Positions 5,911 through 61,322 of a DNA stretch of 64,000 nucleotides are shown here, one piece after another; position 1 is the first letter of the stretch; the number at the start of each line of letters is the position of its first letter. The position numbers and the translations under genes were made by a program. The stretch covers positions 39,988-103,987 of the forward strand of contig JAFXAD010000043.1 of assembly GCA_017522065.1 (NCBI GenBank). The letters run 5' to 3'. The notes beneath the pieces are model-generated. The model had not been told where the DNA came from. It did not search any database and was given only the letters and a program-made list of their open reading frames with translations. The stretch is from Bacteroidales bacterium (GTDB lineage: Bacteria; Bacteroidota; Bacteroidia; Bacteroidales; P3).

Positions 5911-6036
5911 TATATTGTTGTATTTTGTTGGTTTGCCGTTTAGGGCAATGGCAGTCGGTCGCAGTAAGCGAAAGAAAGAATAGTTTAAAAACATTTTGAC
6001 AATCGCCTTTGACGCGAAAGCATTGCCATTATAATT

Positions 6037-6225
6037 GTCTGCGGGCAGGTCTCCTGGCTTCCGTCTCCGCATCAGGCACCTTCTCGGATTCGATGTCCAA
6101 TGGTATTCAGCCTGGCGAAATAATGGCGGTTTACAGTTGCGCGACAGCTCACGATTTTCACGCGATTCCCTCTTGGCCTCGCCGTTTTCGGCAAGGAACC
6201 CCGACATGTCATTATTTTAATGTAC
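6037..6225 (-). promoter_or_regulatory. Cobalamin (B12) riboswitch
   Basis: On the minus strand the leader of the CoA-transferase gene carries the conserved cobalamin-riboswitch core: AGAGGGAATCGCGTGAAAAT, then GAGCTGTCGCGCAACTGTAA (complement of about 6125-6172), closed at the 3' side by GCCAGGAGACCTGCCCGCAG (complement of 6039-6058). These match the G-rich junction, the B12-box-like CGCAACTGTAA and the terminal AGGAGACCTGCC. The element sits about 130 bases upstream of the start codon and just after a perfect promoter. B12 binding normally lowers expression; whether that happens here through transcription or translation is not evident. Confidence 0.9.
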
Positions 6226-50182: not shown

Positions 50183-50725
50183 ATGACCAAAAGAGAAGCA
50201 ATAGATTATTTTAATAAGATTTGGAACGATAGTGCTTGTCATTACCCTAGAGAAATGTCAAACATTGTAAAATGGTTAAATAATGTGAGACTTGAGACTG
50301 AACTATGGAACTATACAGAAGTTTCGGATATAATAGCTAAAGGAATAAAAGTTTGTCACGATAGTGGAAACACTTTTGAATTTGTTGATTGTCGCGTTTG
50401 GGATAATTATAAAGCTGATTATGTTGAGAAAGGGTTATTTATTACCGTTTCAGCCCAAAGTTTAGGTGTGATAAGACGCTACTCCGATGGTAGTTGTGAA
50501 AGATTGAACATTGTATACAAGAATAATTATGAAGCAATGTATATGTGTAGTTTCTGTACTGAGAATCCGGAAGGGAAAGATGTGGGACGAGCATATTATT
50601 GGACAATTTATCCTAATGACAAGCAGCAAAAGTTCCATTCTTGGGACATCCGCGATTCTGCAACGAATGAGACTATTTCTGGTGGCTTTTGGGATTATGA
50701 CAGAGAGGAATATATGCTTGATTAA
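50183..50725 (+). CDS. Hypothetical protein
   Basis: 180 residues, soluble, with no signal peptide or membrane helix. Rich in aromatic residues (WNDSACHYPREM, RRYSDGSCERLNIVYKNNYE, GRAYYWTIYPNDKQQKFHSW) and acidic at the end (DYDREEYMLD). I do not recognise the family; small proteins of this kind near accessory genes are often immunity proteins. It is the first gene after the ncRNA terminator, in clearly AT-rich codons. Confidence 0.65.
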   Translation: MTKREAIDYFNKIWNDSACHYPREMSNIVKWLNNVRLETELWNYTEVSDIIAKGIKVCHDSGNTFEFVDCRVWDNYKADYVEKGLFITVSAQSLGVIRRYSDGSCERLNIVYKNNYEAMYMCSFCTENPEGKDVGRAYYWTIYPNDKQQKFHSWDIRDSATNETISGGFWDYDREEYMLD

Positions 50726-50755
50726 TCAACTTATTAATAATTAAATTAAAACAAA

Positions 50756-51115
50756 ATGGGGACAGCGATTTATATAATTCTATGTCTTGTTGTTGTAGGA
50801 ATATTATGGGCAACTGGTTTCTTGCCTCAATTCCTATTCTTGGGTGGCGGAGTGATAGGGATAGGATTGATTTGTGGTACGGCGTGGTGGATATTCGGCA
50901 GTGATTTTTCTACTGGATGGAATGTGGGCAAATGGCTTGCCGTAGTAGCTTGGGGAATTATAAATCTTATGATGATTATTAATGATGATGGGTTCGAAAT
51001 AGAGGTGTTTAGTGATGGTAGAACGGAGACTCATTCAGACCGTGCCAAAGGTGTTGTAGGATTGTTGGCAAGTATAGCAATGGCATTGTTGTTTGTATTT
51101 TGGGGTAAGTTTTAA
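50756..51115 (+). CDS. Small membrane protein
   Basis: 119 residues with three to four membrane helices (about 4-22, 25-45, 57-74 and 98-116) and a short charged loop (NDDGFEIEVFSDGRTETHSD). No known family. Thirty bases after the previous gene on the same strand. Confidence 0.65.
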   Translation: MGTAIYIILCLVVVGILWATGFLPQFLFLGGGVIGIGLICGTAWWIFGSDFSTGWNVGKWLAVVAWGIINLMMIINDDGFEIEVFSDGRTETHSDRAKGVVGLLASIAMALLFVFWGKF

Positions 51116-51154
51116 GTGTTCAATGTAATAGATGTTAATTTCAGATGGTAATAT

Positions 51155-51688
51155 ATGACAAGAAAAGAGTTATTGGATTTGGTCTGTGATATGGCCAACT
51201 TAAGTTTAGATTGCAAGTATCCAGATGGTCGACCATTTAATGCAATGAAAGTTTGCATCAATCATCTAAAGGATTCTTGTTGGTATAATGCCTCATTTGG
51301 AGACACATCCGACGGAAGTGCTATGTTGAGAAACGGGGATGCTGAACAATTGAAAATATGGCTTAATGGTGTAGATTGGAGTGAACGGAATGACTATCAA
51401 ATAGAGACTCTATCAGTTCGTGTGAATAAACCGAACATTTCTATTTTTTATGCAGAATATTCTCAAGACAAAACTGAACCGCAATTACTTGTTGATTGTA
51501 CGATTAACACTCATAAATCTTATAATTTGAGGTTCCGTGGTGGAAGATCGAAAAATTATGAAAGGCTAACAGAATGGGGATGGACAAGATGGGGCACGTT
51601 GAATGGACACAAACCGGGAGAGACTGATCCTTATTATTTAAATATGGATTATTGGGATGACATAGTTGATCCTGATGTTATGTGTTGA
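51155..51688 (+). CDS. Hypothetical protein
   Basis: 177 residues, soluble. It starts like the protein at 50183 (MTRKELLDLV against MTKREAIDYF) but the rest does not clearly align. Notable are DSCWYNASFGDTSDGSAM and the Trp-rich tail (RLTEWGWTRWGTL, NMDYWDDIVDPDVMC). Unknown function. It ends 64 bases before the peptide gene, so it may or may not be part of the peptide pathway. Confidence 0.65.
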   Translation: MTRKELLDLVCDMANLSLDCKYPDGRPFNAMKVCINHLKDSCWYNASFGDTSDGSAMLRNGDAEQLKIWLNGVDWSERNDYQIETLSVRVNKPNISIFYAEYSQDKTEPQLLVDCTINTHKSYNLRFRGGRSKNYERLTEWGWTRWGTLNGHKPGETDPYYLNMDYWDDIVDPDVMC

Positions 51689-51752
51689 AATAAAAGGCGG
51701 AATCCGAAAAGCCTGCAATAGAGTAGGATCAAACCCTATAAAATGCTGCATT

Positions 51753-51869
51753 ATGGAAGTCAAATTTCATGTTGTAAAAGCAAGTGTTGAAGAAAATGGA
51801 ATCTTCACCTATGCTAATTTCAGCCAAAACGGTCCGTGTGACATGTGTTGGGGCGACTTAAGCCTTTAA
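51753..51869 (+). CDS. Candidate RiPP precursor peptide (38 residues)
   Basis: A 38-residue ORF begins MEVKFHVVKASVEENG, goes on with IFTYANFSQNG and ends PCDMCWGDLSL. It is immediately upstream of a radical SAM/SPASM gene, with a hairpin between them, the standard layout for a ribosomally made, modified peptide. The charged first half fits a leader. The last dozen residues hold two Cys (CxxC), two Asp, one Trp and one Met, good targets for radical SAM chemistry. The upstream frame adds 29 unlikely codons, so the ATG at 51753 is chosen. No homologue is known to me. The call rests on context and size. Confidence 0.65.
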   Translation: MEVKFHVVKASVEENGIFTYANFSQNGPCDMCWGDLSL

Positions 51870-51878
51870 CATGCAGAT

Positions 51879-51904
51879 GGGATGCGCGTCAAGTTGCGCA
51901 TCCC
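51879..51904 (+). promoter_or_regulatory. Hairpin between peptide gene and maturase operon (attenuator)
   Basis: GGGATGCGC (51879-51887), an 8-base loop and GCGCATCCC (51896-51904), a perfect 9-bp stem 9 bases after the peptide stop, followed by only a weak T stretch (TTAATTTG). A leaky terminator or RNA-stability element here would make far more peptide than enzyme. Confidence 0.7.
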
Positions 51905-51936
51905 TTAATTTGATTTAAATAATATAAATATCATAT

Positions 51937-53256
51937 ATGTATTGGTCTAAATATAATATATTGACCCATTCTGAGAAGTTCGGTTATCTACTGTTTAATA
52001 CTATGTCTATGGTATTCATTCAGATTGACGAAAAAGACATAGATGTATGGAATGCCCTGAAGAAAGCTCCAGAAACCTATCAGGAATTCAAAAACTGGGA
52101 ATACTTAGTAAAGGTACGAGTATTGGTGGAGCAGGCAGAAGATGACTTGAACATATATCTCGCCGATGTTTTGAAAAACCGATATAATTGTGCTGATGTA
52201 GCTTTGACGATACTGCCTACTCGTGGATGCAACTTTGGATGTATTTACTGCTACGAACAAGACCGTCCGATGAAACACATGGATGAACAGACAGAGCGAA
52301 GCATTATAGCTTTTCTACGGGCAAACAGTAATATTAAACGCCTCAGTGTTGTATGGTATGGTGGCGAGCCGCTCATAAATTTCCAAAGTGTAGAACGTCT
52401 GTCGAAGGCATTTCTCCAGATGGGAATAGCGTATTCTGCCAAGATGGTAACCAACGGCTATCTGTTAACACCAGAGATAGCAGAAAAGATAGAGTCGCTG
52501 GCTATTCGAAATATTCAGATTACCCTTGATGGTCCGGAGCCAATTCACAATCAAAGACGGATGCTGTTAGGAGGACGGCCTACCTATAGAACCATTATAG
52601 ATAACCTGAAGTACTTGTTAAATGTTAACAAAACCGTAACCATTGACATCCGAACAAATGTTGATCGCCGCAACATGGAGGAATATGATACCTTTTACCA
52701 AAACTTCATGGCGGAAGTCGCTGATCCTCGCGTTAATTTGTATCCTGGTTTCGTTTCAGATTTACTGTCTTCTGAATGCGTTTCGGCAGAGCATAATATC
52801 AGCGCAGGAGGTTATAAAGCCCAGTTTGCACTCGATATCTACAACAAATACGGTATCGAAATCAAATCTTTCCTTCCAAAATATCGCCGCCACAGTTGCG
52901 TTGCCAGTAAGTATTGGGCTTTTGTGATTGGACCTGAAGGGGAATTATATAAATGTTGGAGAATGGTAGGCAACAAACAGCAAGAAATTGGAAATGTCAA
53001 CAATCTAAAGATTAATATGGCCAAATTCTCGCGCTATATAATAGGAGCCGATTATACACTTGACCCCAATTGTCTTGCCTGTGAGTATATTACGCTTTGT
53101 GGTGGAGGTTGCCCTTTGGTTAGAATGAGAAACAAATATGAGGGGTTGGAAATTAGCCACTGTTGTCCAGAAAAATCTCATATGGATAAACTGATGGAGA
53201 TGCGCTACGATATGTATCTGAAACAGAAAAAAAGTGTAAATGAAAGTCTATGTTGA
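51937..53256 (+). CDS. Radical SAM/SPASM peptide maturase 1
   Basis: 439 residues. The first 85 residues look like an N-terminal peptide-recognition region. The radical SAM motif is CNFGCIYC (C98, C102, C105), followed by VVWYGGEPLINF (SAM-binding GGE) and TNGYLLTPEIAEKIESL. The C-terminal SPASM domain carries the extra Cys set: HSCVASKYWAFVIGPEGELY with KCW, then NCLACEYITLCGGGC and SHCC. SPASM enzymes modify peptides, making thioethers, C-C links or decarboxylations. It is the first enzyme of the operon and overlaps the next gene by 17 bases. Confidence 0.9.
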   Translation: MYWSKYNILTHSEKFGYLLFNTMSMVFIQIDEKDIDVWNALKKAPETYQEFKNWEYLVKVRVLVEQAEDDLNIYLADVLKNRYNCADVALTILPTRGCNFGCIYCYEQDRPMKHMDEQTERSIIAFLRANSNIKRLSVVWYGGEPLINFQSVERLSKAFLQMGIAYSAKMVTNGYLLTPEIAEKIESLAIRNIQITLDGPEPIHNQRRMLLGGRPTYRTIIDNLKYLLNVNKTVTIDIRTNVDRRNMEEYDTFYQNFMAEVADPRVNLYPGFVSDLLSSECVSAEHNISAGGYKAQFALDIYNKYGIEIKSFLPKYRRHSCVASKYWAFVIGPEGELYKCWRMVGNKQQEIGNVNNLKINMAKFSRYIIGADYTLDPNCLACEYITLCGGGCPLVRMRNKYEGLEISHCCPEKSHMDKLMEMRYDMYLKQKKSVNESLC

Positions 53257-54550
53257 GACATATGGATGCAGAATGAATATCTGTGACAGTGAGGTTATTG
53301 TCAGTATTCTTGAATCCCATGCATACCAATACACATCGATATTGGCAGAAGCCGATGTGGTAGTATTGAACTGTTGCTCTGTTCGTGAAATTGGACACGC
53401 TAAGACTTACCAACGCATTTGTGAACTTGCAAATATCCTAACAGCTAATGTGATACTATGCTTAGCAGGTTGTATGTCTACCCAACTTCAAGAAGATGTT
53501 TTTACAGCATTTCCGCGCTTACAGATAGTTATCAGTCCTACAGCCTACAAAAAATTACCAGAAGCGCTTGCCGACATCAGAAATGGGAAGTTCAAACACC
53601 TGTATGTTAACGGAGAAAAGTCAGATGAGGTCTATAACAATATATTGCCAACACGTGTGTTGGAAGATTCAGTAACAGCGGCAGTCACTATCATGAAGGG
53701 GTGTGACCTATATTGTAGTTATTGTATAGAGCCCTATACCAGAGGCGAGCGTACAAACTGTAGTTACGATGGCATTATGAGAGAAATCGCAGCAATCCGA
53801 CAGGCAGGATATCAGGAAATTACCCTTTTGGGACATATTGTTGATATGTGGGAGGGTAAGCGACATGGAGTTCCTATTGGCTTTGCCCAACTGCTTGACG
53901 ATATTGCAAAGTCCAGCCCACAACAACGCATAAAATACATTTCCTCACATCCTTTAACCTTTTCTGATGAGATCGTGCGAGTTGTTAAGCAGAACGACAA
54001 TATCATGCGCGTAGTACACCTACCTGTTCAATCTGGCTCCGACAAAATTCTAGACAAGATGAACAGATGTTATACCTGTGAGCAGTTCTTAAAGAGAGTC
54101 GAAGCCATAAGACGTGAGGTTCCTAACCTCCATATTATCACAGACATTATGGTGGGATTCCCAGGAGAGGATGAAGAAGATTTCCTCCTTTCTCTCGAAT
54201 TACTAAGGCATCTGCGATGTGCCAATGCTAATGTATTCGCCTTTTCTATGCGTAAAGGGACTATGGCATACAAGACATTTGAAGACAACGTTCCTGACGA
54301 AGTTAAACGGGAACGAGTGAAAATAACGAAAGACCTCGTGAACCAGATCCAAGCAGAACAAATGAGTGCGCTGATTGGCACTATTCAAACTGTCATAGCT
54401 GAAAGAGAAGAAAAGGACTACTGGCTTGGTCGTGATATGTGTCACCGCACTATTGCTTTCCCTTTTGTAAAAGGAATGAAGATAGGGCAGAGAATAAATG
54501 TCAAGATAAATCATGTTATTAATAATCAATTGATAGGCATCGCTCAATGA
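53240..54550 (+). CDS. MiaB-like radical SAM methylthiotransferase (pathway paralogue 1)
   Basis: 436 residues in the three-part layout of the family. The UPF0004 domain has the auxiliary-cluster Cys C10 (YGCRMN), C45/C46 (LNCCSV) and C78 (AGCMST). The radical SAM motif is CDLYCSYC (C155, C159, C162) followed by PYTRGER. A TRAM domain forms the last 60 residues. MiaB adds SCH3 to tRNA adenosine. Here the usual QMN and VVPYTRGxExSR stretches are altered (CRMNICDSE, IEPYTRGERTNC), and the gene sits in a peptide operon, so a peptide substrate is likely. Overlaps both neighbours. Confidence 0.87.
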   Translation: MKVYVETYGCRMNICDSEVIVSILESHAYQYTSILAEADVVVLNCCSVREIGHAKTYQRICELANILTANVILCLAGCMSTQLQEDVFTAFPRLQIVISPTAYKKLPEALADIRNGKFKHLYVNGEKSDEVYNNILPTRVLEDSVTAAVTIMKGCDLYCSYCIEPYTRGERTNCSYDGIMREIAAIRQAGYQEITLLGHIVDMWEGKRHGVPIGFAQLLDDIAKSSPQQRIKYISSHPLTFSDEIVRVVKQNDNIMRVVHLPVQSGSDKILDKMNRCYTCEQFLKRVEAIRREVPNLHIITDIMVGFPGEDEEDFLLSLELLRHLRCANANVFAFSMRKGTMAYKTFEDNVPDEVKRERVKITKDLVNQIQAEQMSALIGTIQTVIAEREEKDYWLGRDMCHRTIAFPFVKGMKIGQRINVKINHVINNQLIGIAQ

Positions 54551-55827
54551 GAATACATATTGAAAATATAGGCTGTTTTAAGAATTTGGTCGACTCCGAG
54601 CGACTATACCATGCTCTTGAGGTGGCAGGATTCAGTGTCACATTCGGTTCGTTTGTTCAGGATGCCGATATTGCCATCATCAATACCTGCGGTTTCATTG
54701 GTGATGCCGAAGAAGACTCCGAGGCACTCATCAAGCAATATGAAAAGAGAAAAAAAAAGGGGCAAATCAGCCAACTGTGGGTTATGGGGTGTTATGGGCA
54801 GAAATATGGCGAATCATTAAAACACAGGAATCCGACAATTGATCGTATCTTTGGCAACTTTGACTGGAAGAACATACTACACATTCTTGGTTGTGACTTT
54901 TATGCAGGTATTCAGCGACATGTCACGACACCGCCACACTATGCCTACTTGAAAATCTCAGAAGGCTGCAATCGTCCCTGCGCCTACTGCATCAAACCCA
55001 TACTGAACGGAAAACTGGCATCGGTTTCGATGGAAACCATTTTGGAAGAGGTTAGATGGATGGTCAGTCAGGGTGTAAGAGAATTACAAATTGTAGCGCA
55101 AAATCTCACTGATTACGGACTGGATATTTATGGAGAGAATAAAATTGCGGAATTAGTGGACAGAATAGCCAACGTACCAGGAGTGGACTGGATACGTCTT
55201 CACTATGCATATCCTTTAGGATTTCCAAAAGATTTATTGAAAGTCATTCGAGAACATGACAATGTTTGCAATTATCTGGACATGGCATTGCAACATTGCA
55301 ATACAGAGATGTTGAAGAGAATGAGGCGTGGAGGCTCCAAAGAATATATTACCGATTTGCTGGCCGAAATTCGTGAAAGTGTACCTGGTATATATCTTCG
55401 CACAACTATGTTGACGGGTTTCCCAGGCGAAACAGTAGATATGTTTGATGAACTGTGCGAATTTGTGAAGGAACAGAAGTTTGAACGCATGGGAGTCTTC
55501 CGCTATTCCGCCCAAAAAGGATCTTACAGCGCCAAGCATTATACAGACGATATTCCCGATGACGAAAAAACACGAAGAGCTTTATACTTAATGGACATAC
55601 AGAATCAATACTATCGAAGACTGCATCTATCGTTGTTAGAAACCGTTCATAGAGTGATAGTAGACGAATGTGTGGATGGCAAATATTATTGTCGCACTGA
55701 GCACAGCACTCCAATGGCTGACCCCAAAGTCATCGTAGAAAGTGACAAATCCTTATCTATAGGCTCCTTTTATCAGGTACAATTTACAGAAGTCTTAGGG
55801 AAAGATATTGTTGGTAAAGTAATATAA
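54547..55827 (+). CDS. RimO-like radical SAM methylthiotransferase (pathway paralogue 2)
   Basis: 426 residues. The auxiliary-cluster Cys are C10 (IGCFKNLVDSE), C48 (NTCGFI) and C82 (MGCYGQ), and the radical SAM Cys are C141, C145, C148 (EGCNRPCAYCIKP). LHYAYPLGFP, DMALQHCNTEMLKRMRRGG and the C-terminal TRAM region follow RimO, which puts SCH3 on the beta carbon of an Asp of ribosomal protein S12. The usual CAIPxxRG segment is changed to CIKPILNGK, unlike housekeeping RimO. Since RimO acts on a protein Asp, an Asp of the 38-residue peptide is a natural target. Confidence 0.87.
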   Translation: MRIHIENIGCFKNLVDSERLYHALEVAGFSVTFGSFVQDADIAIINTCGFIGDAEEDSEALIKQYEKRKKKGQISQLWVMGCYGQKYGESLKHRNPTIDRIFGNFDWKNILHILGCDFYAGIQRHVTTPPHYAYLKISEGCNRPCAYCIKPILNGKLASVSMETILEEVRWMVSQGVRELQIVAQNLTDYGLDIYGENKIAELVDRIANVPGVDWIRLHYAYPLGFPKDLLKVIREHDNVCNYLDMALQHCNTEMLKRMRRGGSKEYITDLLAEIRESVPGIYLRTTMLTGFPGETVDMFDELCEFVKEQKFERMGVFRYSAQKGSYSAKHYTDDIPDDEKTRRALYLMDIQNQYYRRLHLSLLETVHRVIVDECVDGKYYCRTEHSTPMADPKVIVESDKSLSIGSFYQVQFTEVLGKDIVGKVI

Positions 55828-55848
55828 CACATAATCAACGCCAGACAG

Positions 55849-57129
55849 ATGAGCGTCTATACAGAAAACCATATAGCCATAGTTGACGACCCTCGGTCGG
55901 AAAAGAGAATCGTTTATCTCCCTTTGGCTGGTTATGCACAGAAAATGACCAAGGCAGAAACTGAAGAATTGACGCTGCGGCTTTGTGGCGAGCAAACTAC
56001 GGCAGCATCTGCGAAAGTGGAAACTATTCTTTCAAAATTGTCCGAACGGAAAAAAGAAATATTTCAGACATCGCATACTGCCGAAGGACTGAGAAGCCTA
56101 ATGCTGCTTCCAAATAACAAATGCAATTTTAGCTGCTCATACTGCTATTCCGCTAGTGGAAGGACAAACGAAGAAATATCACCTCGTCTCATAGAGGCAG
56201 GCTTGAATTATTTTCTTAACCGAGAAAGGGCAAAAGGCCAGCGTCTGTCTATTTCCGTTCTTGGCGGGGGTGAACCTCTTTTATCATGGAATATCTTAAA
56301 ACCGTCACTTGAGAAAGCGTTGATGCTAATCGAAGAACGGGATGTTTCATGTCCAATCTCGCTAGTAACGAATGGCTCTATTTGTACGGACGAAATCATC
56401 CAGTTCTGCCTCTTGCACCATATTAGTTTGAGTGTGTCGTTTGATATTTTAGAAGACGTACAGAATGCTCAACGAGGCCAATGGAAGAAAGTGTCTAAAA
56501 ACATTAATCGTTTTGCCGATGCAGGTCTTGATGTAGCTCTAAATACAGTTATCAGTAACAAAAACGTTGTGAAAATGACGGAGATGATAGAACATTTAAG
56601 GTCGTATCATCCTCACGTCAAGAAAGTGTCTTTTAAGACACTAATCACCAATCACTATTTTCATAATACTGATGAGCGAAGAGCCTACTATAATGCATTT
56701 ATTGTAGAATTTTTCAAAGCCAAGACTTTGGCAGATAAGTATGGAATCTGGCTGACTTGTTCATATATGAACACCTGTCTTTGTCTGGTGGACAGATATT
56801 GCCCAGGTAAATTTGTCATCACCTCAGAGGGAGATATCTCCATCTGTCATACCGTGGGTTCCAAGCGTGATGAGTTGTATAAGGATTTTGTATTTGGTAA
56901 AATAGATGAAGCTACGGGAAAGGTGTATATCAATGAAGAGAAACTATGTCGTATACTCTCATTTGATGTCACTAAAAGTGAAAAATGCCAAGATTGTCCT
57001 GCACGATGGCACTGCGCAGGAGGATGTTATGCAGATCGTTTTCAGTTGAGCGAAACAGAACATGAGGCTTATTGTGAATCCATGAGGGCATTCCTTGCGT
57101 TGTATTTAATATATAAGTATAAGTTATGA
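55849..57129 (+). CDS. Radical SAM/SPASM peptide maturase 2
   Basis: 426 residues. The radical SAM motif CNFSCSYC (C92, C96, C99) follows LRSLMLLPNNK. SISVLGGGEPLLSW holds the SAM-binding GGE. The SPASM end is CPGKFVITSEGDISICHT, then CQDCPARWHCAGGC and EAYC. Residues 1-80 could bind the peptide. It is clearly different from maturase 1, so it probably makes a second kind of modification or works on a different residue. It is 21 bases after the RimO-like gene and overlaps the next by 4. Confidence 0.9.
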   Translation: MSVYTENHIAIVDDPRSEKRIVYLPLAGYAQKMTKAETEELTLRLCGEQTTAASAKVETILSKLSERKKEIFQTSHTAEGLRSLMLLPNNKCNFSCSYCYSASGRTNEEISPRLIEAGLNYFLNRERAKGQRLSISVLGGGEPLLSWNILKPSLEKALMLIEERDVSCPISLVTNGSICTDEIIQFCLLHHISLSVSFDILEDVQNAQRGQWKKVSKNINRFADAGLDVALNTVISNKNVVKMTEMIEHLRSYHPHVKKVSFKTLITNHYFHNTDERRAYYNAFIVEFFKAKTLADKYGIWLTCSYMNTCLCLVDRYCPGKFVITSEGDISICHTVGSKRDELYKDFVFGKIDEATGKVYINEEKLCRILSFDVTKSEKCQDCPARWHCAGGCYADRFQLSETEHEAYCESMRAFLALYLIYKYKL

Positions 57130-58364
57130 AAACAGTATTCATAAAAAGTAACGGTTGTGCTGTATTAATGCATGAAACAGAGCGGATTGCTAAATATTTC
57201 ACAGAGAACGACTGGAAATTAGTAGACTCACCAGAAAAGGCAAGAGTTCTTGTAATGACTTGTTGTGGTGTTACAAATAATGAAGAGGACCAAGCCATAG
57301 AAATTATCAGAGAAATAGAACAGCAGCGCATGCCTGACAGCAGATTCTTCATTTCTGGCTGTATGCCAGCATTTGCAGCAGATCGTGTAATGGAAGTCTC
57401 TCCCTCCGCATTTATTTTAAAAATTTCTGAATTAGATGCGTTGGACAGCGTTATCAGTGCAAACAAACCGTTTCACACGGTTCATTATAATGTGAATCCA
57501 CGGTTAGGAAAATGCGAAGATTATACATTCCAGGAAGATGATGACTTGCAACTGATGCGCAAAATAGATGAAAAATATCATTCATATGAATGTGAACGCG
57601 CTTGGGAGTTCTCAACGTTACGCAAATATATGTGGCAAGACGAAAGAACGTACCAAATAAAAGTTTCTTATGGATGCCCTGGTCATTGCAGTTACTGCGC
57701 AACAAAGTTGGGAATAGGCGACTTTAGAAGTATTGACATGAATCTGGTCATAGAGCAATTCCGTGAGGGTTGGGAGAAAGGATATACCAAATTTCTTCTG
57801 ATTGGCGATGAGATTGGTAACTATGGACGCGATATAGGCACGTCACTTATTGACCTACTCCAAAAATTGTATAGTTTGTCTGAAGGACGTGCCGTTGTAT
57901 CCATACGTTATATCCATCCAGATATTTTCGTGAAGATGTATGAAAAACTCTCATTCTTTTTTGCCAAGGGTTTTGTCAATTACTTCTGTTGTGCAATTCA
58001 GTCGGGAAGTCCTGATGTTCTGAAGCGAATGAATCGCAATCCGAAATTGGAATCCTTTATTAACTGCATGGAAGATATGAATACCAAAAACTACCCTGTA
58101 AATAAGCATACACAAATTATAGTGGGTTTCCCTGGGGAAACAGCAGAGAATTTCTTACAAACTATGGATGCACTTCGACGTTGCCAGTTCGATCATATCA
58201 ATATTAATCTGTACAGTCCTAGAAGGCATACCGCTGCATGGAGTATGACAGACAATGTCTCTCAAGAAGATAAAGCTTTTAGGGCAGCACTCATCAAACA
58301 TAATATGATGCTGCGTAAGAAGGCCATTTTGTATGATGCAATTAAGAAAACCGTTAGAATATGA
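57126..58364 (+). CDS. Divergent methylthiotransferase-like radical SAM enzyme (pathway paralogue 3, no TRAM)
   Basis: 412 residues. The UPF0004-like domain keeps Cys at C11 (NGCAV), C46/C47 (MTCCGV) and C79 (SGCMPAF). The radical SAM motif is CPGHCSYC (C184, C188, C191). GDEIGNYGRDIGTSLIDLL and IVGFPGETAENFLQ are family-like. An unusual insert of about 60 residues lies between the two domains (HTVHYNVNPRLGKCEDY through EFSTLRKYMW), and the protein ends at IKKTVRI without the RNA-binding TRAM domain. Lack of TRAM argues against an RNA substrate. Confidence 0.82.
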   Translation: MKTVFIKSNGCAVLMHETERIAKYFTENDWKLVDSPEKARVLVMTCCGVTNNEEDQAIEIIREIEQQRMPDSRFFISGCMPAFAADRVMEVSPSAFILKISELDALDSVISANKPFHTVHYNVNPRLGKCEDYTFQEDDDLQLMRKIDEKYHSYECERAWEFSTLRKYMWQDERTYQIKVSYGCPGHCSYCATKLGIGDFRSIDMNLVIEQFREGWEKGYTKFLLIGDEIGNYGRDIGTSLIDLLQKLYSLSEGRAVVSIRYIHPDIFVKMYEKLSFFFAKGFVNYFCCAIQSGSPDVLKRMNRNPKLESFINCMEDMNTKNYPVNKHTQIIVGFPGETAENFLQTMDALRRCQFDHININLYSPRRHTAAWSMTDNVSQEDKAFRAALIKHNMMLRKKAILYDAIKKTVRI

Positions 58365-59224
58365 TAGATTCCACATGGGTCAATATGACGGAATTGTCTG
58401 ATTCGTTGCGTAAGGTCATTCCAATCATTAGGTCGATAGAGGAGCATAGTGCCCCTGCACCATTCACGTATATCAATATCTTCATATCGCTTATTGCGAC
58501 CTTATTTGGACTTGGATCATTTTATTATGCTAAGAAAACTGCCGACAATGTTAGTCGCCTTTCAAAGAAAACACAGATAACATTGTTTGAAGACCTGTTA
58601 CGAGACTATCTTCAAATAGTAGTCCGACAACTTGTTGCCCTCAAAAGATTAAGAGACAAGAATTGGTACATTACAGAAGATGCTATGAATGAAATAAAAT
58701 ACTGGCCATCAGAAATTTACTTTAAACAGGATGTATACAATAGCCAAAGCAAGATATACAAGATGATATACAACCTTAAGCAAAGAATGCAAGAGTATAA
58801 TAACAACATAACAGTCTATCAACAGAATATTTCGAAAGGGAAAAGAATTGGTGAAGATAAGGTCATACAACTTTTTGAAAGCAATTGGATGAATCTGTAT
58901 AAAGCATACGCCATATACGCAAAACTTAACTGTAAAGTAAGAGCAGATGCGGTAGTAGAAACCGTCGAAGCCATTTATATTGATTTGCATAATAAATACA
59001 TTAAGGATATGAAGTCAAAGAATTCTCTCTTATCGCTGGATGAGAATTTACAACAGACATATCTTAACATAATAGAAAAACAATACAAAGAACTCTCACT
59101 CAATGTTAAGTCTTGGAACACTATATGTGCTATAGAAAGTAGAATGAAAAATTACCTTTGTCAAGATGCTTCTCTTTATGAGGTATCCATGCGAATCAAA
59201 GAAAACCGATTATCAGCAAAATAA
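58361..59224 (+). CDS. Single-pass membrane protein of the peptide operon
   Basis: 287 residues. A short N-terminus is followed by one membrane helix (about 35-57, FTYINIFISLIATLFGLGSF) and a long Lys-, Asn- and Tyr-rich helical cytosolic part (YNSQSKIYKMIYNLKQRMQE, YAIYAKLNCKVRADAVVETV). No known domain. It overlaps the previous gene by 4 bases. It could anchor the maturation complex, or provide immunity or export, as no transporter gene is present. Confidence 0.7.
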   Translation: MIDSTWVNMTELSDSLRKVIPIIRSIEEHSAPAPFTYINIFISLIATLFGLGSFYYAKKTADNVSRLSKKTQITLFEDLLRDYLQIVVRQLVALKRLRDKNWYITEDAMNEIKYWPSEIYFKQDVYNSQSKIYKMIYNLKQRMQEYNNNITVYQQNISKGKRIGEDKVIQLFESNWMNLYKAYAIYAKLNCKVRADAVVETVEAIYIDLHNKYIKDMKSKNSLLSLDENLQQTYLNIIEKQYKELSLNVKSWNTICAIESRMKNYLCQDASLYEVSMRIKENRLSAK

Positions 59225-59228
59225 ACGA

Positions 59229-60224
59229 ATGCGAAAACGTATTTATATAGAATGCAACGAAGTAGAAGACTTGTGTCATGAAGTTTTCTTTAATGATTAT
59301 ACGCCCTCTCTAAACAAAAGCATGGAAATAGACGAATATGGATTCTGGCATTCTGTAGGAAAGAAGATTTCTCTAGATGATAGTATACCCAACAAGACAT
59401 TTTACAAAAAAGATTGGAAAGATGTTACACAGGACAAAGAAAAAGATGGCAAGAGGGGTGTACTTGTGAGAAAAAGAGTTAACCAACATGGATTATCTGT
59501 CATCATAGCATCGCCATTTCAGAATCATCCTTTTCCTGCAGTGGTTATATGTCTTGGTGGACCTCTAATACAAATTCCAAATATCTACGAAGAAAACTCT
59601 ATATATGAGACACTCATGAACAATGGTTTTGCTTTAATTATTCCATTGCGACGTGGAGTCATGGGGATTTCCCCTGAGTGGGAAGCAGCGCTGGAACACC
59701 ATTATGGAGAATATGATATCCAAGACACTATCGAGGCAACAATTTTTGCCATCACGCATCATCCTGAAATAATCGACAAGAATCGAATCTATTTGTACGG
59801 TGGTAGTTATGGTGGATATGTGGCAGAACTCATCGCAGGGAAATGTAATTCTGGCAGACTTTTCAAAGCCATTATTGCACATTGCGGCGTTTATGACTTA
59901 GCGTTATACCCTTGGCACAATCAAGGAATTCCAGAGGAGACTATGCAAACTTATGGTCACACTACAGAACGAAAAGAGTATATGGAAAATGTGGTAGAAT
60001 TATCCCCCAAATCTTATGTTGATAATTGGAATGTTCCTGTTCTCCTAATACACCATCTTAACGATATGAGTTCATGGTTTGGGCAGTCTGTTGCTGCTTA
60101 TAACGATGCACTGAAAAAAAGGAAAAAAGTGGATTTAATAATTGTACCAGGACCTCATACCTATGAAATAAAACACCGCGATGCATTATTCCGACAAATT
60201 GTGGCTTTTTTCAAATCCAATTAG
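59229..60224 (+). CDS. S9-type alpha/beta hydrolase (prolyl oligopeptidase-like)
   Basis: 331 residues from the ATG at 59229 (MRKRIYIECNEVED). The catalytic triad is visible: Ser193 in YGGSYGGYVAELIAG, Asp in HHLNDMSSW and His in PGPHTYEIKHRDAL. There is no signal peptide, so it acts in the cytosol. It has a short N-terminal part instead of a full propeller. A role in cutting the leader from the modified peptide is plausible but not shown. It starts 4 bases after the membrane protein gene. Confidence 0.85.
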   Translation: MRKRIYIECNEVEDLCHEVFFNDYTPSLNKSMEIDEYGFWHSVGKKISLDDSIPNKTFYKKDWKDVTQDKEKDGKRGVLVRKRVNQHGLSVIIASPFQNHPFPAVVICLGGPLIQIPNIYEENSIYETLMNNGFALIIPLRRGVMGISPEWEAALEHHYGEYDIQDTIEATIFAITHHPEIIDKNRIYLYGGSYGGYVAELIAGKCNSGRLFKAIIAHCGVYDLALYPWHNQGIPEETMQTYGHTTERKEYMENVVELSPKSYVDNWNVPVLLIHHLNDMSSWFGQSVAAYNDALKKRKKVDLIIVPGPHTYEIKHRDALFRQIVAFFKSN

Positions 60225-60233
60225 ATTATACTT

Positions 60234-61322
60234 ATGATGAATGAATTTTTATTGTCCCTTTTGTCCTCCTCAACAGTGTCTGGCTTTGAGGAAAATGGAT
60301 GTGAATTGTTTGAAAATTACCTTAAGCAATATGTAGACGAACACCATCGTGATATTGTTGGCAATAGTATTGTAACGTTGAACAATCAAGAGAATTGCGA
60401 TTCAATACTTATTGAGGCGCACATTGATGAAATAGGTTTTCAAGTATTATATATAGGAGAAGATGGAGGAATATACCTTCGAGCCAATGGTGGCGTAGAC
60501 ATGCATTGTATTCCTGGAAGTCAAGTTGAAATACATGGAAAAGAAGGAACTGTAAGTGGCATCATAGGGAAAACACCTATTCACCTTTTAACTAATAATG
60601 AACGTGATAAAATTATTGAACTGTCTAATCTTTGGGTTGATACAGGTCTTGATGTTGAGGATGTAAAAAAGAAGGTAAGAGTCGGCGACGTTGTTTCTTT
60701 CAAGTCGAATATTGAGTTTTTGGGTGAACACCGAATTACATCAAAGGCATTGGATGATAAAGTAGGCGTATTTATTGTTGCGGAGGTCATTCGTTACCTT
60801 TCAAATTATCGAGAGCATTTAAACTGCAAGGTTGCTGGTGCTGCCACTGTACAAGAGGAAACAGGATGCAGAGGAGTTCAAACTAGTTGCTTTTCTATAA
60901 TGCCAGACATTGCAATAAGTATAGATGTTGATTTTGCAACCGACGTTCCGGGATGCCCTAAAAACAAGTACGGAGATGTGAGTTTAGGGAAAGGAGTAGT
61001 TGTTTCATATTGTCTGGATAGCGACATTTCTATGGCAGATGAAATGATTAGTATAGCTGAAGAAAAAGGTATTCCTTTTCAGTTATCTGCTCGTCCACAA
61101 GCTACAGGAGGAACTAATGCTTCAAGAACTCGATTTATGGGATCAGGCATCAGAACTATATTGTTGGGTATACCATGTCGCTATATGCATACACCTGTAG
61201 AAATGTGTGATTTAAGGGATGTCGAGGCCGCCATTAGATTGATTGTTGAATATATCAAGAAACTTTCTGATACTCAAAATATAGCAGGTGTTTACCACAG
61301 AAACTATCAACAGTTAACGTAA
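60234..61322 (+). CDS. M42 family metallo-aminopeptidase
   Basis: 362 residues. Metal ligands of the family are recognisable: H63 and D65 in EAHIDEIGF, the bridging Asp in SKALDDKVG (174-175), catalytic Glu and ligand in VQEETGCRG (208-209), Asp in SIDVDFATD, and H319 in RYMHTPVE. M42 enzymes form large tetrahedral assemblies that trim short peptides from the N-terminus. As the last gene of the operon it may trim leader remnants or recycle the peptide. Confidence 0.88.
   Translation: MMNEFLLSLLSSSTVSGFEENGCELFENYLKQYVDEHHRDIVGNSIVTLNNQENCDSILIEAHIDEIGFQVLYIGEDGGIYLRANGGVDMHCIPGSQVEIHGKEGTVSGIIGKTPIHLLTNNERDKIIELSNLWVDTGLDVEDVKKKVRVGDVVSFKSNIEFLGEHRITSKALDDKVGVFIVAEVIRYLSNYREHLNCKVAGAATVQEETGCRGVQTSCFSIMPDIAISIDVDFATDVPGCPKNKYGDVSLGKGVVVSYCLDSDISMADEMISIAEEKGIPFQLSARPQATGGTNASRTRFMGSGIRTILLGIPCRYMHTPVEMCDLRDVEAAIRLIVEYIKKLSDTQNIAGVYHRNYQQLT

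Follow-up and report, generated by a model that had tools for sequence, protein, structure and literature searches.

Several types of radical S-adenosylmethionine (SAM) enzyme with a SPASM domain, among them the TIGR04463, Clo7bot, CefB and PapB/CteB types, are maturases of ribosomally synthesized and post-translationally modified peptides (RiPPs). PapB, for example, joins Cys to Asp in the CX3D motifs of a RiPP (PMC10470005). Methylthiotransferases are known for acting on tRNA A37 and on Asp88 of ribosomal protein S12 (PMC10702137 and PMC13063428), and the target of RimO in S12 is the β-carbon of this Asp (PMC13063428 and PMC10002905). Here, we analyze a locus in which genes for both kinds of enzyme follow a gene for a 38-residue peptide. 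It lies in a 64,000-nucleotide stretch of DNA (hereafter the window) from a Bacteroidales bacterium (GTDB P3; assembly GCA_017522065.1, contig JAFXAD010000043.1, positions 39,988–103,987 of the forward strand). The locus is likely to represent a new, mobile type of RiPP gene cluster, whose peptide would be modified by five radical SAM enzymes (A–E) and then cleaved by a serine hydrolase (G).

Comparison with the closest described systems shows both the kinship and the distance. Enzyme A shares near full-length, and D partial, similarity with the SPASM RiPP maturases named above; the operon departs from those systems in combining two different SPASM enzymes with three methylthiotransferase-type enzymes (B, C and E), and A and D stay below every curated cut-off among the matches listed. 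Relatives of A occur in Bacteroidales RiPP clusters of the radical SAM kind that carry C39 exporters (the CefA/CefB and TIGR04149 types), with a short Cys-containing peptide gene directly upstream, whereas the window cluster has a single precursor and methylthiotransferase-type enzymes, and no Gly-Gly (GG) motif or C39 exporter. As in MiaB, RimO and MtaB, UPF0004 and radical SAM domains and six cluster cysteines are present in B, C and E, and B and C exceed the MiaB and RimO cut-offs. Unlike those enzymes, B, C and E reside within a peptide operon, form clades of their own and are additional to three such genes in each genome; moreover, B and E have no TRAM match, and E scores under the family cut-off.

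Among the records listed by the literature searches, which left most subscription journals uncovered, none was found to describe a methylthiotransferase within a RiPP pathway. An initial annotation of this DNA likewise knew of no pathway described with this gene set. In the available portions of PMC8326336, PMC13063428, PMC10702137, PMC5682303, PMC4979651, PMC6231123 and PMC10470005, methylthiotransferases are mentioned only as enzymes of tRNA or S12 or in reference lists. The accessible part of PMC12383660 uses the word methylthiotransferase as a name for YcaO proteins, and that of PMC9177418 excludes a cluster with a so-named YcaO protein as a false positive; neither MiaB nor RimO occurs in the part of a Bacteroidales RiPP survey that was available (PMC10352776). 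The chances are about even that, for the first time in a RiPP pathway, methylthiotransferases from at least two independent lineages, one of them tRNA-modifying, have here been retargeted to a ribosomal peptide, yielding a cross-linked, multiply methylthiolated peptide.

Conservation of the gene set and its peptide

Two further homologous loci were found, a second (L003) in genome G004 and a third (L007) in genome G465; both genomes belong to other species of the genus and have the cluster at a different site. A profile of E matches 3 of 120 genus genomes (E-value ≤1e-55), the peptide, searched separately, matches the same three, and A matches those three alone among 190 family genomes from 12 genera (E-value ≤1e-75). 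Only 62 of these genus genomes reach 90% completeness with contamination of 5% or less, so that absences within the 120 are soft. At all three loci, the common set runs in the order peptide-A-B-C-D-E-G between unrelated flanks, with B and C between the two SPASM genes and with the A/B and B/C overlaps. Identities to the window in G004 are 92% for the peptide, 90% for A, 66% for B, 79% for C, 75% for D, 80% for E, 62% for F and 64% for G; in G465, they are 61–63% for the peptide, 68% for A, 47% for B, 57% for C, 42% for D, 53% for E and 38% for G. Beyond the family, the E profile matched only the window's own genome among 393 order and 395 phylum genomes (as a rule, the best four candidates per genome were scored), and a scan of genome contigs with one query sequence found only a close relative, L004.

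The initial annotation had proposed a RiPP pathway, to be checked by the co-occurrence of the enzymes with a conserved short open reading frame (ORF). Both further loci keep this ORF, its C-terminal 13 residues being identical, and E and the peptide occur in the same three genus genomes; the RiPP interpretation is thus supported, at the level of sequence, against the possibility that the enzymes are kept where the ORF is missing. Trimming by the M42 peptidase (H), also proposed there, does not stand as a conserved step, since an intact H occurs in the window alone; H gives a 61-residue match in G004 and, like the membrane protein F, was not found at the G465 locus at an E-value of ≤0.01. The sole conserved hydrolase is G.

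The identical segment, residues 26–38 of the peptide, reads NGPCDMCWGDLSL. Between the window and G465, the last 17 codons differ by seven nucleotide changes, all of them silent; when seven changes were placed at random, 1 of 200,000 placements left the 16 residues unchanged. The window and G004 differ over the whole gene by four silent and three replaced codons, one replacement (Q25K) falling within the last 17 codons. The silent-only changes against G465, together with the identity of residues 26–38 at three loci, indicate that the peptide ORF is a real gene. In the N-terminal half, F5, V7 and V8 are conserved. The conserved segment contains two Cys and two Asp, the spacing of which is not CX3D; the peptide matched no Pfam or NCBIfam family and no solved structure.

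Table 1. Features of the cluster, with positions in the window
Feature	Position	Strand	Evidence or conservation
DUF805b RNA (RF02914), leader element	51694..51729	+	47.6 bits against a gathering score of 35.6; ends 23 nt 5' of the peptide ATG
Precursor peptide, 38 aa, MEVKFHVVKASVEENGIFTYANFSQNGPCDMCWGDLSL	51753..51869	+	At 3/3 loci, last 13 residues identical
Hairpin, 10-bp stem, weak T-tail, between peptide and enzyme genes	51879..51904	+	Folding and shuffles
A: radical SAM enzyme with SPASM, likely a maturase of peptides	51937..53256	+	Pfam, NCBIfam, PDB sequences, neighborhoods of relatives
B: methylthiotransferase paralogue of the MiaB lineage, without a TRAM hit	53240..54550	+	Lacks its C-terminal part in L007
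C: methylthiotransferase paralogue of the RimO lineage, carrying TRAM_2	54547..55827	+	Pfam, NCBIfam, tree
D: the other radical SAM/SPASM enzyme, different in subtype from A	55849..57129	+	Pfam, NCBIfam, PDB sequences, low-confidence model
E: divergent methylthiotransferase-type enzyme without TRAM	57126..58364	+	Pfam, NCBIfam, tree
F: one likely membrane segment, accessory	58361..59224	+	At 2/3 loci
G: S9-type serine hydrolase	59166..60224	+	At 3/3 loci; likelier start 59229
H: M42 aminopeptidase, accessory	60234..61322	+	Intact at 1/3 loci

The genes of the cluster are tightly packed (Table 1). A and B overlap by 17 nucleotides (nt), and B/C, D/E and E/F by 4 nt each, with gaps of 21 nt between C and D and 9 bases between G and H. 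For G, the ATG at 59229, just past the stop of F, is the likelier start than the listed ATG 59 nt inside F. Pfam recognizes Radical_SAM in A–E, UPF0004 in B, C and E, TRAM_2 only in C (45.4 bits), Peptidase_S9 in G and Peptidase_M42 in H; F matched no Pfam family, and its one likely membrane segment was judged by eye. The initial annotation's inventory (a 38-codon ORF, a hairpin, two SPASM enzymes, three methylthiotransferase-type enzymes, a membrane protein, an S9 hydrolase and an M42 peptidase) is borne out by the ORFs, Pfam and NCBIfam.

Enzymes B, C and E of the methylthiotransferase type

B lies over the NCBIfam cut-off for MiaB (TIGR01574; 359.5 against 355.3 bits) and C over that for RimO (TIGR01125; 357.3 against 356.95 bits). 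Both also pass the methylthiotransferase family model TIGR00089 (cut-off 251 bits), with 375.7 bits for B and 340.5 for C in the window and 346.5 and 333.2 in L007. The initial annotation's count of three methylthiotransferase-type enzymes holds fully for B and C; E shares with them the combination of UPF0004 and radical SAM domains and falls under the family cut-off, so that its sequence marks it as methylthiotransferase-like rather than as a proven member. Its next-best NCBIfam match is MtaB (190.4 bits). In all three enzymes and at all three loci, the three N-terminal cysteines and the CxxxCxxC motif for the iron-sulfur clusters are kept; judged from lists of positions, they are placed much as in MiaB and RimO of E. 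coli. TRAM gave no Pfam match in B or E of the window, although B aligns to TIGR00089 through its last position and a diverged TRAM may remain. B of G465 is 357 aa long and ends before the TRAM region; the 3' end of its gene runs 4 nt into C, which makes a sequencing slip an unlikely cause of the shortening.

In each of the three cluster genomes (G465 being 81% complete), six genes match the methylthiotransferase family strongly; three of them lie outside the cluster, so that B, C and E are extra. By tree position and by N-terminal motifs, read by eye, the outside genes are presumably of the MiaB, RimO and MtaB types. In a tree of 20 rows, C groups with RimO (support 100/99) and B joins MiaB (94/94, below what the tool stars as supported), while each cluster gene forms a clade of its own (100/99 or better) and E sits on a long branch. 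A single origin of B, C and E was rejected (approximately unbiased test, p-AU 8e-10). For E, grouping with MtaB (p-AU 0.479) and with MiaB and B (0.147) were both compatible with the data, and the best tree has it, unsupported, with RimO and C; the tool flagged meeting long branches at two rows, E and E. coli RimO. Two of the three host RimO rows are ATG-start fragments (336 and 335 aa), and one host MiaB is 5'-shortened. On this phylogeny, the cluster has drawn on at least two, perhaps three, lineages of methylthiotransferases.

The SPASM enzymes A and D

A and D keep the CxxxCxxC motif and a C-terminal cysteine series of the SPASM pattern. A matches TIGR04463 over nearly its full length (215.9 bits), and D gives a partial match to PapB (88.2 bits); the cut-off for PapB-type ranthipeptide maturases (NF047865, 340 bits) is missed by both (A 134.5, D 88.2). 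Among the sequences of solved structures in the PDB, 5wgg (CteB) is the best-scoring chain for A and D alike. A low-confidence model of D matches CteB, TigE, anSME, SuiB, SkfB and ChlB, and the confidence in the predicted structure of A was too low for such a comparison. A viperin-type defense role was considered and rejected: pVip models match A at 51.2 and D at 63.2 bits, across the radical SAM core, and SPASM maturase models score higher, by far for A (215.9) and less so for D (88.2). In the case of D, where this margin is smaller, the full C-terminal cysteine series argues against the viperin type.

Relatives of A are informative about its family. A profile of A matched 10 of the 393 order genomes besides its own, giving 11 loci at about 29–34% identity. 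A short Cys-containing ORF lies just 5' of the relative at 7 of these (L064, L066, L068, L069, L071, L072 and L074), and a C39-type ABC exporter lies downstream at 10 of the 11, Peptidase_C39 being found by Pfam in all 10 proteins scanned. Four of the short ORFs were scanned: one exceeded the CefA cut-off, one gave a sub-threshold match to TIGR04149 and two matched nothing. Homologues of B, C and E were not found at an E-value of ≤1e-4 in the stretches covered at any of the 11 loci, several of these being cut by contig ends. These neighborhoods indicate that A stems from a RiPP-serving family, and that the methylthiotransferase-type enzymes are peculiar to the window's cluster type. A CefA-type precursor with 12 Cys (L066:9265-9507) was observed beside one A relative in another Bacteroidales genome.

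Leader RNA and hairpin

DUF805b RNA scores above its gathering threshold 5' of the peptide at all three loci (47.6 bits in the window, 53.9 in L003 and 48.0 in L007). A role as a RiPP-specific switch was rejected as a general rule because copies precede varied genes. The three cluster genomes hold at least seven copies, four of them over the cut-off and three of these the clusters' own; the counts are lower bounds (the best 150 candidates per genome were scored). Sub-cut-off matches occurred in 2 of 14 control genomes. The fourth copy over the cut-off precedes a small lipoprotein-like ORF (by eye), and of three sub-cut-off copies in G004, two stand before other genes and one before a CXXX-repeat radical SAM target. 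Copies over the cut-off are present at 2 of the 11 A-like loci (L070:6668-6703 and L073:4440-4474). Several DUF805b copies lie within or close to loci for radical SAM peptides; those outside the clusters and the A-like loci are in L040, L041, L042 and L043 (the last three below the cut-off). In L043 (1-1480, minus strand, G004), the Cys-rich CXXX-repeat peptide scores 48.3 bits against TIGR04117, below the 50-bit cut-off, and its gene is followed by a partial radical SAM gene resembling TIGR04115. No mention of DUF805b RNA by name was found in the literature searched.

The hairpin region 3' of the peptide gene folds in the window at −21.1 kcal/mol (z −4.3), and none of 200 shuffles was equally stable. 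Hairpins stand at this place at all three loci, with z values of −4.3 in the window and −5.4 in both L003 and L007. The L003 hairpin is a near-copy of the window's, whereas that of L007 is unrelated in sequence; that dissimilar hairpins occupy one position speaks for a retained function. The hairpin probably causes partial termination or protects the 3' end of the mRNA, either of which would give more peptide than enzyme.

Genomic context and mobility

The cluster appears to be mobile, to judge from its surroundings. Its flanks differ between loci: in the window, they encode a sigma-54 protein and lumazine synthase; in G465, a C10 peptidase; and in G004, the cluster sits between acyl-CoA dehydrogenase and etfA genes. 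The alignment of the window to G004 soon stops upstream of the leader element. A close etfA was present in three of five congener genomes searched, and in all three it adjoins the acyl-CoA dehydrogenase gene. Matches to L003 1547-3258 and 13993-15008 are directly adjacent in G001, about 200 nt apart in G465 and about 510 nt apart in G002, which indicates that about 10.7 kb (L003:3259-13992) has been inserted in G004. The etfA matches of the window's genome are distant (53% and 45%). No direct or inverted repeats were evident at the ends of the insertion in a search that was not exhaustive, and no recombinase was recognized among the ORFs scanned, which covered part of the insert.

A viral or plasmid origin was rejected on searches with E, A and the core: E found three plasmid records at 24–26% identity and 32 phage records, at 22–30% among the 20 listed; among viral contigs, it gave L034 at 28% identity, and neither A nor the core (as a degenerate pattern) was found there.

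Proposed pathway and alternative explanations

At all three loci, a short precursor lies beside genes for maturases that resemble enzymes established or predicted to act on ribosomal peptides, if below the cut-offs for A and D. From this arrangement, we infer a pathway in which the substrate and chemistry of each enzyme, the order of the steps, the excess of peptide and the role of G are as follows. The 38-residue peptide would be made in excess over the enzymes by virtue of the hairpin 3' of its gene, its N-terminal half (with F5, V7 and V8) serving as leader and the conserved C-terminal segment as core. A and D would install radical cross-links in the core, most plausibly thioethers from Cys29 or Cys32 (to Asp, as in PapB, or to another carbon) or a C–C bond at Trp33. 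B, C and E would place SCH3 groups on unactivated carbons of core residues; for C, the RimO relative, the most plausible site is the β-carbon of either Asp30 or Asp35, by analogy with RimO and Asp88 of S12. Finally, G would cleave off the leader or cut a bond in the product. The residue assignments are guesses. As no exporter or immunity gene was recognized and the 13-residue core is invariant, the product may serve inside the cell, as a cofactor or a compound that binds metal, and not as an antibiotic. If the proposal is correct, SCH3 transfer joins the modifications of RiPPs, and a 38-residue candidate substrate with three enzymes of different ancestry would form a small, directly testable system for substrate choice by methylthiotransferases.

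Several observations weigh against this proposal. A and D fall under every cut-off among the NCBIfam matches listed (25 of 66 for A and 25 of 58 for D). Pfam gave no match to a RiPP recognition element (RRE); the models are uncertain, with mean predicted local distance difference test (pLDDT) values of 43.8 and 61.0, and the structural matches of D start near residue 75, leaving its N-terminus uncovered. Four of the 11 A relatives (L065, L067, L070 and L073, with L070 near a contig end) show no upstream short Cys-containing ORF. E scores 221.4 bits against the TIGR00089 cut-off of 251 and is also below it at both other loci; C keeps TRAM and is just over the RimO cut-off, as B is over that of MiaB, so that action on S12 or tRNA is compatible with their sequences. 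The peptide has no GG motif, and none of the cluster genes was recognized as coding for an exporter, immunity or a known leader protease; among the operon genes, Pfam found no C39 or ABC exporter, the S9 hydrolase G being present at all three loci. Furthermore, the loci number only three, all in draft genomes of one genus.

One alternative is that a RiPP made by the SPASM enzymes hits translation, and that B, C and E confer immunity by modifying tRNA A37 and S12 instead of the peptide. The natural targets of the MiaB, RimO and MtaB classes are indeed close to the decoding centre; B branches with MiaB, as C does with RimO, both over the respective cut-offs, MtaB is the best functional subfamily for E, and no other gene in the cluster was recognized as conferring immunity. 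However, the host already has three other methylthiotransferase genes (MiaB-, RimO- and MtaB-like), TRAM is without a match in B and E and lies beyond the end of B in L007, and the overlapping A/B and B/C genes, with B and C enclosed by the SPASM genes, recur at all three loci. Immunity is therefore an improbable explanation, weaker than modification of the peptide.

Within a RiPP pathway, only some of B, C and E might methylthiolate the peptide, the others putting their shared fold to a different use, for example to insert sulfur, to form a thioether bridge or in a structural role. This division of labor would suit both the strong divergence of E, under the family cut-off, and the shortened B of L007, but all six cluster cysteines of each enzyme are kept at all three loci, and we regard it as possible though doubtful. 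It is very improbable that an unrelated short ORF lies beside a tRNA and ribosome modification island and gives no peptide product. Although the ORF is indeed short, without a Pfam or NCBIfam family or a solved-structure match, it shows a conservation pattern and co-occurrence with the enzymes that are at odds with such a chance neighbor, as are the leader RNA and hairpin at all three loci; SPASM enzymes are not known to act on tRNA.

Other features of the window

Three plus-strand genes occupy positions 50183-51688, immediately 5' of the leader element; those at 50183-50725 and 51155-51688 had no Pfam match (the third is 50756-51115), and none of the three had a significant match at the other two loci. 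Elsewhere in the window, a cobalamin riboswitch was detected at 6027-6218 on the minus strand (90.4 bits).

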